Shown: positions 1-8,362 of the stretch, piece by piece
Layout: every line of letters starts with the position of its first letter
How positions within the stretch are numbered: the first letter of the stretch is position 1
Virus record (IMG/VR): IMGVR_UViG_3300044715_000434
Span: 1-53,815 of that record
Source: a virus
Length of the DNA stretch: 53,815 nt
Direction: 5' to 3' (one strand)
The notes under the pieces: model-generated
Told to the model about the DNA's origin: nothing
The model's input: only the letters and a program-made list of their open reading frames with translations
Databases searched by the model: none
Position numbers and translations under genes: made by a program

Positions 1-213
1 TTGTGGCTTACCCTCTGGATTATCAATAAACAATGCTGCAACTAATCTGTGGACTCTGTGTCTTTCTCTAATACCATCATAAAATAGATCTACACATAAA
101 TAGCTTCTATTATTAGGAAATGGTTTTAATAATTCGTTATTTGAATTATAAATATTACCAAAATTGCTTATAGTATATTGTGTATCTTTAAATCTTTTAA
201 ATTCTTCTTTCAT
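1..213 (-). CDS. Intron-encoded HNH-type homing endonuclease, N-terminal part (runs off window)
   Basis: The 71 codons visible from ATG 213 to the window edge match the start of NUMOD4/HNH homing endonucleases: a YTISNFGNIYN stretch (NUMOD4-like) at about residues 13-23, then a VHRLVAALFIDNPEGKPQ stretch that normally leads straight into the HNH core. The catalytic histidines lie beyond the edge. The gene sits inside the group I intron, just 3' of the ribozyme core, which fits a mobility gene that cleaves intronless terL alleles. The ribosome site is weak, as is common for intron ORFs. The family call rests on motif recognition only. Confidence 0.85.
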   Translation of the reverse strand, partial: MKEEFKRFKDTQYTISNFGNIYNSNNELLKPFPNNRSYLCVDLFYDGIRERHRVHRLVAALFIDNPEGKPQ

Positions 214-461
214 TGTAAATTTCACATGTACTCGGCAAAGTACTTCTATATATTACTATATAGATCAGACTATATCTTAACATAATAAATTATGTCTTCC
301 GCTTTTCGAGATCACTTGACCTCTATGAATTTCATCATCTGTTCTAGATGGTATATTCTAGTCGTTGAACCTTCAAAGTCTTCCCAGACTAGGCTTGGCT
401 GCTGATTGTCCTTAAAGAGGAGTTTCCAGCAATTAACGGAATTTTACAAGGGCACTTGTTT
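1..461 (-). ncRNA. Group I self-splicing intron interrupting terL (3' end outside window)
   Basis: Reading the minus strand down from 461, the conserved blocks appear in order: P-like AATTGCTGGAAACTCC, Q-like AATCAGCAGCCAAGC, R-like GTTCAACGACTAGA and S-like AAGATATAGTCTGA. GACTA in R can pair with TAGTC in S (P7). The exon ends in AAGGGT and the intron carries GCCCTT at 448-453, forming P1 with the required U-G wobble at the splice site, so the 5' splice site is placed between 462 and 461. The HNH ORF begins at 213, after the core. The 3' splice site is outside the window. Confidence 0.93.
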
Positions 462-830
462 ACCCTTACCACGCATACGTTCAACCGATTCGTACGAGAG
501 TAGTATTAACTCTACATTACTAGGAAATAAGAACCGTCCTGTATCGCGAGATGCTTTAATTGCATAATGCTCCATCCCAAGATCATAATGGATTAGCGGA
601 TAATAAATATCTTTTACCTGATCAAAGGTAGGAGCAATAATATATACCTTTTTATTAGGCACATTAGCTGGTAATTCGAGTAGTTCGAACACAGCAGATA
701 TAGCAGCTACAGCAGCCTTATAGGACTTGCCCCAGCCACGAGCACAACACACAGTGGCATATCTAACACTACGCTCAATAAATAAAGCACGATAAATTTC
801 TGATTGTGCTGGATGTAATTCAATGGCCAT
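462..830 (-). CDS. terL: Terminase large subunit, first exon (ATPase N-terminus)
   Basis: The packaging motor ATPase of tailed phages. Exon 1 encodes 123 residues in phase 0. A Walker A-like ARGWGKS lies at residues 30-36, and the exon ends in SYESVERMRGKG, the segment that precedes the Walker B acidic pair in terminases. The Walker B and nuclease domain must be in exon 2, beyond the intron. ATG 830 is chosen because GGAG lies 7 nt upstream; ATG 848 in frame has no ribosome site. Read through the intron, translation stops at 444 after three intron codons and a leucine. The gene follows terS and a small hydrophobic ORF that overlaps its start. Confidence 0.9.
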
Positions 831-1002
831 GAATAATCTCCAAGGCATCCGCTAATAATCTTAATAACGTAATGGCCATTACTAGTACTATCCAGCTGGA
901 TGTACTGAGCCATATACTTGATAGTACAATAATTATATTGAGGAACATACTTGGTACCATATATAAAGAAAAGAATTTAAGACGCAAATAGAGAGCATCC
1001 AT
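820..1002 (-). CDS. Small hydrophobic protein overlapping terL start (uncertain)
   Basis: A 60-residue ORF with one long or two short membrane segments (IIIVLSSIW and WIVLVMAITLLRLL). It overlaps the terL start by 11 nt, which would allow translational coupling. No ribosome site precedes its ATG. Its frame is -1 relative to the 933-1058 ORF, so the two may be parts of one membrane protein. In T7 the slot between the terminase subunits holds spanin genes, but no lipobox or spanin signature is visible here. Function unknown. Confidence 0.35.
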   Translation of the reverse strand: MDALYLRLKFFSLYMVPSMFLNIIIVLSSIWLSTSSWIVLVMAITLLRLLADALEIIHGH

Positions 1003-6295: not shown

Positions 6296-6924
6296 GGTCT
6301 CACATCCATTAGTGCTAGTTCTCTAATATCATCTCTTAGGTCTTGTACTACATTTTCAGCTAAGACATGCCCAATATAAACACCGTTTACAGATACCTCA
6401 TCAATATCTCCTGTCATACAGTCTAAAATTACATCAAAAGGTACACCGTTGTAATCAAGCCGTATAGGTGCGCCTCTGAATGCGTTATAAGCTGTGTACT
6501 GATTTTGTAATAAATGTTCAGGTACAACATCACGTCTATTTACATTTCTGTACTTAGCATCTTCTAGCGTTGTTGGAAAGAATTTAAACTCAACGCTATA
6601 GTCTGCTCTGATCAACCGTTGCATTAAAGGCTGCAGTTTGTTATAGTTAAGGTTTGTATCTGCAAAGATTATATTACTACCCTCATATAATGCAGCTTCA
6701 ATAAGCTCTTCTCTACGTCGATTGCATGTGTTCTCCATTGTTTCGAAATCCCAATGCTCCCACATATTATCCTCTGCAGGGTCGTATTCCTTAACATTGA
6801 GGATGAGATGCGTACGTCTAATAACATCTCTATCGATTACACGCCACGCGTCTTGATGAGACCATGCCCAAGTTGACTTGCCTGAACCACTAATACCTAC
6901 TGTAAATATTGCTTGTTTACTCAT
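6292..6924 (-). CDS. Polynucleotide 5'-kinase-like P-loop protein
   Basis: 210 residues. P-loop GISGSGKSTWAW near residues 9-20, then DRDVIRR (the R-D of the kinase lid/substrate motif), an FADTNLNYN strand and a VVPEHLLQNQYTAY segment, all as in the kinase domain of T4 PseT. The phosphatase domain of PseT is absent. Likely phosphorylates 5' ends for repair together with the ligase encoded just upstream. Start ATG 6924 overlaps the small membrane gene (ATGA). Confidence 0.8.
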   Translation of the reverse strand: MSKQAIFTVGISGSGKSTWAWSHQDAWRVIDRDVIRRTHLILNVKEYDPAEDNMWEHWDFETMENTCNRRREELIEAALYEGSNIIFADTNLNYNKLQPLMQRLIRADYSVEFKFFPTTLEDAKYRNVNRRDVVPEHLLQNQYTAYNAFRGAPIRLDYNGVPFDVILDCMTGDIDEVSVNGVYIGHVLAENVVQDLRDDIRELALMDVRP

Positions 6925-7052
6925 TTCATTAAATCCTGATATAAGTGTTTAATAGAATATACTGCAAACCCAACTGAAATTACTGATAATGCTACTACAC
7001 CAACTGTCATTGCAAGCTCCAGAATAAATTGTAATACTTCACTTTTCATCAT
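6921..7052 (-). CDS. Small single-pass membrane protein
   Basis: 43 residues from ATG 7052 (AAGGA 6 nt upstream), with one membrane helix (MTVGVVALSVISVGFAVYSI) flanked by short polar ends. It overlaps the ligase stop and ends in ATGA with the kinase gene. Function unknown. Confidence 0.5.
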   Translation of the reverse strand: MMKSEVLQFILELAMTVGVVALSVISVGFAVYSIKHLYQDLMK

Positions 7053-8362
7053 ACAAGTTCCTTTAATGTTTCTAAAGTGTCTGCAGTGTCTTTATCATAT
7101 CGACGTTCTACAAACTTAGGTTCAAACAAACTATACTCACCCTTCTCATTAGTGATCACGGATGAATACGTTACTTCAATGATAGCATACATCCAGCCAT
7201 CATAATTTTGGTGGATTTCCCACGTTAATTCATTGGTAAGATTACCTACGTTAACTATAAGTTGTCCATCTTCTGTACTACATTTAAGAGAGCCAAATGT
7301 ATCAGCATTCTCTCCTGTGCCTGGATTAAAATCAATTACTCTCAATTCACAATGTAACTCTTTTTTAAACTTAACAATCTCTTTACTAACACCATTCTTC
7401 CAAACAGCTCTGTAAGACTTTAATACAGTACCTTCCTTACCTTGCTTAGCTAGCTCTACAAAGTGATCTTCAGCTTCTTGTAGTGTTGTAACTAACTTAG
7501 ATGGAATTGCCTTAACATACTTCCGATCATAGTTATTAATAGATTGATACCTATCTATATACAGGGTATGGTCTATATTCTTTCTGATAGATGTAATTGG
7601 TACAATATCCCAATAATAAAATACGGGATATTCTCCATTTTTAAATTCTCCGCCTAGGTTGACACGTCTTAAAACACCATTACTAGTTTTACGTTCTAGC
7701 GGTACACCATTGACCTCTACAATCAACTCACCATGTGTTTGGTATCCTTCCTTGATTACACCAAGCCCTTCTGCTTGTATTAGGAGTTCTCTATAAGAAT
7801 CAAAAGGCATCTCTTGGTACTTACGGCTTAGCATTGTAATGGCTGAACCCTCTATAGTAATGTTTACAAATAGGCCATCAGCCTTTTCCTGACTAAATGC
7901 AGGGAAATGAAACTCATCCATTTTAACATGTTTAGGTAAGCTACATCTCATATAAGCTGCTACAGGTATTAGGCCAGGAACAGCTTTGTTAATAGTCTTA
8001 GCATCAAAGCCTGCCCTGAGATCTTTTTCTAAAATACCCCTTAACACTGCCTCAGAGCCGTTATACAGCTTTCCCATTGTAGCTAATAAGGTTTCAATTG
8101 CAAGCTTACCTGTTACATATCTTTGGCTTAGCAAGTCGAGCAGACCCCATGTATCATAATCAAATGACTTCAGTAAGCCAACCTTATGTGAGACACTGGG
8201 CACTTTACGTATACCAAATGTAATAAATGGGTTGTACGCATATACAATTACTTTCTCAAATTCATCATCTTGTAAGTAAAATTCCAACATTTCTATCTTA
8301 GCATTCTTAGAAGGCTCTGCTGCAATACCCTGTAAGCATTCGTATATTTCATCTGTGTTCAT
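7049..8362 (-). CDS. ATP-dependent DNA ligase
   Basis: 437 residues from ATG 8362, chosen because CGGAG lies 6 nt upstream; an in-frame ATG at 8446 would place a terminator hairpin inside the gene. The nucleotidyltransferase motif I is EKADG near residue 160 (Lys is the AMP acceptor). HGELIVEV (motif III), KEGTVLKSY (motif IV) and EIVKFKK (motif V) follow in order, then an OB-like domain. The length is somewhat above T7 ligase. Seals nicks in replication and repair, in one operon with PNK, polymerase and exonuclease. Confidence 0.88.
   Translation of the reverse strand: MNTDEIYECLQGIAAEPSKNAKIEMLEFYLQDDEFEKVIVYAYNPFITFGIRKVPSVSHKVGLLKSFDYDTWGLLDLLSQRYVTGKLAIETLLATMGKLYNGSEAVLRGILEKDLRAGFDAKTINKAVPGLIPVAAYMRCSLPKHVKMDEFHFPAFSQEKADGLFVNITIEGSAITMLSRKYQEMPFDSYRELLIQAEGLGVIKEGYQTHGELIVEVNGVPLERKTSNGVLRRVNLGGEFKNGEYPVFYYWDIVPITSIRKNIDHTLYIDRYQSINNYDRKYVKAIPSKLVTTLQEAEDHFVELAKQGKEGTVLKSYRAVWKNGVSKEIVKFKKELHCELRVIDFNPGTGENADTFGSLKCSTEDGQLIVNVGNLTNELTWEIHQNYDGWMYAIIEVTYSSVITNEKGEYSLFEPKFVERRYDKDTADTLETLKELV

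Follow-up and report, generated by a model that had tools for sequence, protein, structure and literature searches.

Group I introns have been found before in the large terminase gene (terL) of phages. They occur in the Bastillevirinae (SIOphi, phiAGATE), where the SIOphi terL intron self-splices in vitro (PMC11878797), and in Bacillus phage Moonbeam (PMC4299906), and the one in the terminase gene of Lactobacillus phage LL-H was among the early ones to be reported (Mikkonen and Alatossava 1995, as cited in PMC4299906). The intron-encoded HNH enzymes I-HmuI, I-HmuII, and I-BasI are nicking enzymes, and exon co-conversion has been described as a process that accompanies homing (PMC2988022). In mycobacteriophages, TerL is interrupted by inteins, which sit at the P-loop, Walker B, and C-motif of the ATPase (PMC5050341).

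The window, by which we mean the whole stretch of 53,815 nucleotides analysed here, comes from an uncultured siphovirus whose relatives include EBPR siphovirus 1 and the DSS3 phages; bacterial genomes were searched for a terL relative that might point to the bacterial host, and none was found. terL and its intron lie on the minus strand at the start of the stretch (positions 848 to 1). We conclude, with a probability of roughly 0.95, that this terL carries a mobile group I intron, putatively of IA-like type. The contig stops at position 1 within the intron, so that the window contains under half of it (461 of 948 nt), and two further contigs help to define it: L001 (IMGVR_UViG_3300042462_000200), which runs on into the second exon, and L002, in which terL is uninterrupted. 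The features at the locus are as follows.

462 to 848, minus strand: terL exon 1, from the Walker A motif CCARGWGKS through SYESVERMRGKG; start at 848 or 830.
1 to 461, minus strand: group I intron, 5' 461 nt of 948; RF00028 match, 0 mismatches over 461 nt against L001, junction set by L002.
448 to 467, minus strand: P1, in which AAGGGU of the exon (467-462) pairs with the internal guide GCCCUU (453-448); the splice-site pair is U-G.
399 to 432, minus strand: P4, P and Q blocks, 432-427 with 404-399; 6/6 pairs.
297 to 441, minus strand: P3, UUCCGU (441-436) with GCGGAA (302-297); 6/6 pairs.
268 to 363, minus strand: P7, formed by the R block (GACUA, 363-359) and the S block (UAGUC, 272-268), from the Rfam alignment.
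246 to 295, minus strand: P8 (295-289 with 286-280) and P9 (263-257 with 252-246).
232 to 240, minus strand: 5' strand CUUUGCCGA of an ORF-bracketing helix; partner UCGGCAAAG outside the window, at L001:6270-6278.
1 to 225, minus strand: NUMOD4/HNH endonuclease gene, first 75 of 219 codons, the rest cut by the contig end; complete at L001:5606-6265.

Exon 1 has PHROG terminase matches (E 7e-6), and its protein shares 98-99% of residues with TerL of L002, where the gene is uninterrupted. The preliminary description had the ATPase exon stop at SYESVERMRGKG, and this is indeed its 3' end, at window 462 (residues ERMRGKG). The same description had placed the element at 1 to 830; the element is there, but the border between exon and intron lies at 462/461 and the exon starts at 848 or 830. 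L001 is 99.98% identical to the window over 5,831 bases and, judging by this identity, the two are one and the same virus. The full intron of 948 nt occupies L001:5370-6317, of which L001:5831-6317 lies beyond the window, and exon 2 follows at 6318-7277. A second contig of 20.6 kb, 3300044715_000427 (L034), starts inside the HNH gene, 75 nt past the window edge, and carries the 3' part of the intron and exon 2 with no mismatch. Exon 2, which had been expected in the adjoining DNA, is thus found in both contigs directly after the intron. The window and 3300044715_000427 together may represent about 74 kb of one virus. We rejected the idea of the window as a permuted circle with exon 2 at its opposite end, as the right end carries scaffold-like and capsid genes. 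Joining the exons in L001 gives a stop-free TerL of 448 residues in which VERMRGKG is followed by AYFVVWDEVSS; the intron lies between codons (phase 0). The joined protein has the motifs CCARGWGKS, VVWDE, STPKG, and IDFN and is nearly identical to the TerL of L002, whose Pfam Terminase_6N match (E 7e-4) is slightly under the curated cut-off; a search of the window with Terminase_6N gave no match. Homologues of this TerL are annotated as terminase. Read by eye, L001 (7198-8239) looks nearly identical to a related contig (L010) from the last terL codons onward, and the two differ strongly in most of terL; this change of identity near the end of terL is taken to be a recombination border.

The HNH fragment in the window (225 to 1) matches phrog_59 HNH endonuclease (E 9e-17) and, weakly, Pfam NUMOD4. 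In L001, the ORF of 219 residues is intact and matches Pfam HNH_3 (E 1.9e-8) above cut-off, with NUMOD4 and C-terminal helix-turn-helix matches below cut-off. Its closest match in an isolate is a protein of Bacillus phage BSP21 that is, by annotation, apparently free-standing. Two short ORFs on the minus strand (1628-1855 and 1836-1991) have weak AP2-domain matches, below cut-off, and are possibly remnants of homing endonuclease DNA-binding domains.

The intron is inserted between GKG and AYFVVWDE, just upstream of Walker B. The junction with 12 nt on either side falls in the top 0.6% of terL windows for nucleotide conservation (19 thinned sequences), which bears out the suggestion that the insertion point is in a strongly conserved part of terL just before Walker B. 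L002 reads through at the exact junction predicted by P1 and the terminal G, and so do 38 other related contigs, although many of these 39 are near-identical and they are not independent cases. The filled site is seen in few contigs, probably all of one virus. Between the spliced terL of L001 and that of L002, 51 of 448 codons differ; four of these, all synonymous, are among codons 1-5 of exon 2, whereas the last 14 codons of exon 1 hold one difference. Only one of the 444 five-codon windows has four or more differences, and it is the one at the start of exon 2. We suggest that this patch is a trace of exon co-conversion in homing; by this count, such a window would fall there with a probability of roughly 1/444, so the sign is suggestive rather than proof. 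An exact pattern search of viral contigs for a donor found the patch only in this virus.

The intact endonuclease ORF, the patchy distribution, and the local divergence in exon 2 are all compatible with mobility. It could be argued that the intron is degenerate, still splicing but no longer mobile owing to an inactive HNH enzyme or the loss of its target, and the restriction of the filled allele to a few contigs, probably of one virus, would fit this. However, the HNH ORF is intact, its motif included, an empty target of almost the same sequence persists in close relatives, and the exon-2 patch suggests co-conversion. We consider loss of mobility unlikely.

The assignment as a group I intron comes from the match to RF00028 (85.7 bits, E 1.7e-20, window 503-246, full model 1-253; gathering score 50), the sole Rfam match within the window. 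Pairing is complete in P1, P3, P4, P5, P7, P8, P9, the ORF-bracketing helix, and the last hairpin, P9.2. The strands of the ORF-bracketing helix, CUUUGCCGA and UCGGCAAAG, are about 670 nt apart, make 9/9 pairs, and enclose the HNH ORF. Equivalent helices pair in homologous introns of related contigs (L010, L032, and L035), and for most helices at least one of these introns has other bases in the pairs; as helices were assigned by eye, the pairing is support and not a statistical test. P3 retains its pairing despite base changes in L032 and L035, as does P4 in L010 and L032, and P7 is invariant across the four introns. The ORF-bracketing helix is found in L010 and L035 only, with different bases (9/9 and 11/11 pairs). 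About 55 nt with self-complementary stretches (read by eye) separate P7 from the 3' strand of P3 and suggest an IA-like subgroup, extra helices P7.1/P7.2 at this place being an IA trait. At its 3' end, the intron reads ...AACACAATG followed by GCATAC, the terminal G preceding exon 2. The preliminary description, which had proposed a group I intron with an HNH gene inside terL, is upheld by the covariance match well above the gathering score, by exon 2, and by the intact ORF. Its canonical P, Q, R, and S blocks all lie inside window 441-268, its P1 of AAGGGT and GCCCTT with U-G is the helix found here, and the NUMOD4/HNH ORF does begin after the core, at 225.

These features also bear on a different reading, in which TerL is either cut short or produced as two proteins, with the intron-like element as an insertion and exon 2 translated separately. 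The frame of exon 2 is open with upstream start codons (TTG and ATG), the last three bases of the intron forming an ATG. Yet the insertion splits the ATPase, with Walker A on one side and Walker B on the other, and separate halves are therefore not expected to form a motor. The strong covariance match, the exact agreement of the junction with P1 and the terminal G, and the in-frame joining of the exons around the homologous introns of L010, L032, and L035 also argue against a split protein, which we regard as very improbable. That the assembly fused terL to unrelated HNH sequence is scarcely credible: the window does end within the intron, where assemblies can break, but L001 runs through into exon 2, 3300044715_000427 has the 3' part and exon 2 with zero mismatches, and the agreement is between contigs of different IMG/VR dataset numbers.

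For a mobile, spliced intron, we infer steps of self-splicing, nicking, and homing. In the terL transcript, the intron would fold and guanosine would attack after the U-G pair of P1; the exons would then join between GKG and AYFVVWDE to give full TerL, while unspliced RNA would yield a dead product of 134 residues. The HNH protein would be made from the ORF within the P9-region loop and would nick intron-less terL of co-infecting relatives near the conserved junction. Repair would then copy the intron, with some flanking exon DNA, into the cut terL.

Related introns occupy other sites in this lineage. L010 has a homologous terL intron of 982 nt at the C-motif, between STPKG and Y (67.9 bits in a small search), and L032 has one of 651 nt at the nuclease motif, between IDFNVG and IQ (87.5 bits), with an endonuclease VII-type ORF in place of the HNH. 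In L035, the intron is in a MuF-RNA polymerase fusion gene, between KAAKA and HNMVTFYG. The introns of L010 and L035 resemble that of the window in their core (75-77% nucleotide identity), in their HNH proteins (39-54% amino acid identity: 39% for the terL-intron protein of L010, 54% for that of L035, the closest relative), and in the ORF-bracketing helix; they differ in insertion site and, for L035, in the gene.

The second gene encodes a MuF-type head protein fused to a single-subunit, T7-like RNA polymerase.

MuF-RNA polymerase gene: L101:1203-7386 (exons), L035:510-5981, and some 40 further loci.

In L035, the fusion has 1,506 residues and unites a Mu gpF-like head protein with the polymerase. 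The fusion protein matches Pfam Phage_Mu_F (E 8e-16) and RNA_pol (E 3e-5), and the polymerase half is matched by gp49 of EBPR siphovirus 1 and by the DSS3 phage 'minor head protein'. The gene sits among head genes, which suggests a virion-packaged polymerase. A 16-base motif, CCCGTTAAATTAACCC, occurs on the minus strand of the window at 1529, 1610, 4184, 17429, 25320, and 53800. These six copies are exact and in one orientation (0.28 would be expected even with up to 3 mismatches), they are mostly in or near intergenic gaps, including a tandem pair ahead of the terL region, and the motif is present in 38 of 73 loci examined. It is a candidate promoter, perhaps for the MuF-fused RNA polymerase. 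The right ends of the window (53815) and of L101 both break at or near a copy of CCCGTTAAATTAACCC; L100 spans the gap.

Other contigs of the lineage have Rfam-supported introns in the polymerase gene near residues 1018 (between DAS and SSG), 1049, 1083-1087, 1110, 1376-1379 (between G and NHSND), and 1404 (between IHD and AF); these positions were read from the ends of alignments and are accurate to within a few residues. Three introns interrupt one such gene in L093 and three in L096 (one partial). Gaps in the polymerase alignments of L085 and L110 matched nothing in Rfam and were left out of the intron count. The window's virus also has an intron in this gene (3300044715_000427, L101; between NMV and TFYG, 868 nt, 73.8 bits), with a different ORF. 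The HNH proteins cluster by site for polymerase residues 1018, 1049, and 1404, the pattern that homing would predict. The HNH of the window terL, however, groups with that of L035 at polymerase residue 1083 (support 94/94), apart from the terL HNH of L010, and this pairing implies a jump between genes. On balance, we favour a reading in which HNH group I introns of a single family are spreading in one siphovirus lineage over catalytic codons of two late genes (three sites in terL, one with a different endonuclease, and at least five in the MuF-RNA polymerase gene, with up to three introns per gene), by ordinary homing, with HNH proteins sorted by site, and by jumps between genes, one of which would link the window terL intron to a polymerase-site intron.

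In automatic annotation, the window terL would pass for truncated or absent, a serious error for a gene that is a main marker in classifying phages. Together with the related HNH proteins at several sites, the occupied and empty sites form a natural data set on how homing introns reach new sites, and the lineage set also bears on why introns settle at catalytic codons.

When isolated phages were searched at the DNA level with the intron core, many phage introns matched over short stretches, but no match reached 80% coverage of the query; one match, in a Vibrio phage, has a toprim-like gene on one side and a GIY-YIG ORF on the other. LL-H is a phage that we take to be unrelated to the window's virus. 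In the Bastillevirinae and Moonbeam, as in the window, the large terminase gene holds a group I intron that contains a homing endonuclease gene, and phrog_59-type HNH proteins are also found in Bastillevirinae introns. However, these phages are of another lineage with another terminase family, and four Bastillevirinae terL introns in the published table have VSR-type nucleases as opposed to the HNH of the window. I-HmuI, I-HmuII, and I-BasI, of SPO1-like and Bastille phages, are like the window protein in being intron-encoded HNH enzymes with a C-terminal helix-turn-helix, but they reside in DNA polymerase genes and their activity is proven, whereas that of the window HNH is predicted. The mycobacteriophage inteins are likewise mobile and concentrated near the ATPase motifs of TerL, but use protein splicing instead of RNA splicing. 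With the terL introns of LL-H, Moonbeam, and the Bastillevirinae and the TerL inteins already described, the kind of element is known; what is new is the intron of this virus, its site, and the lineage-wide pattern.
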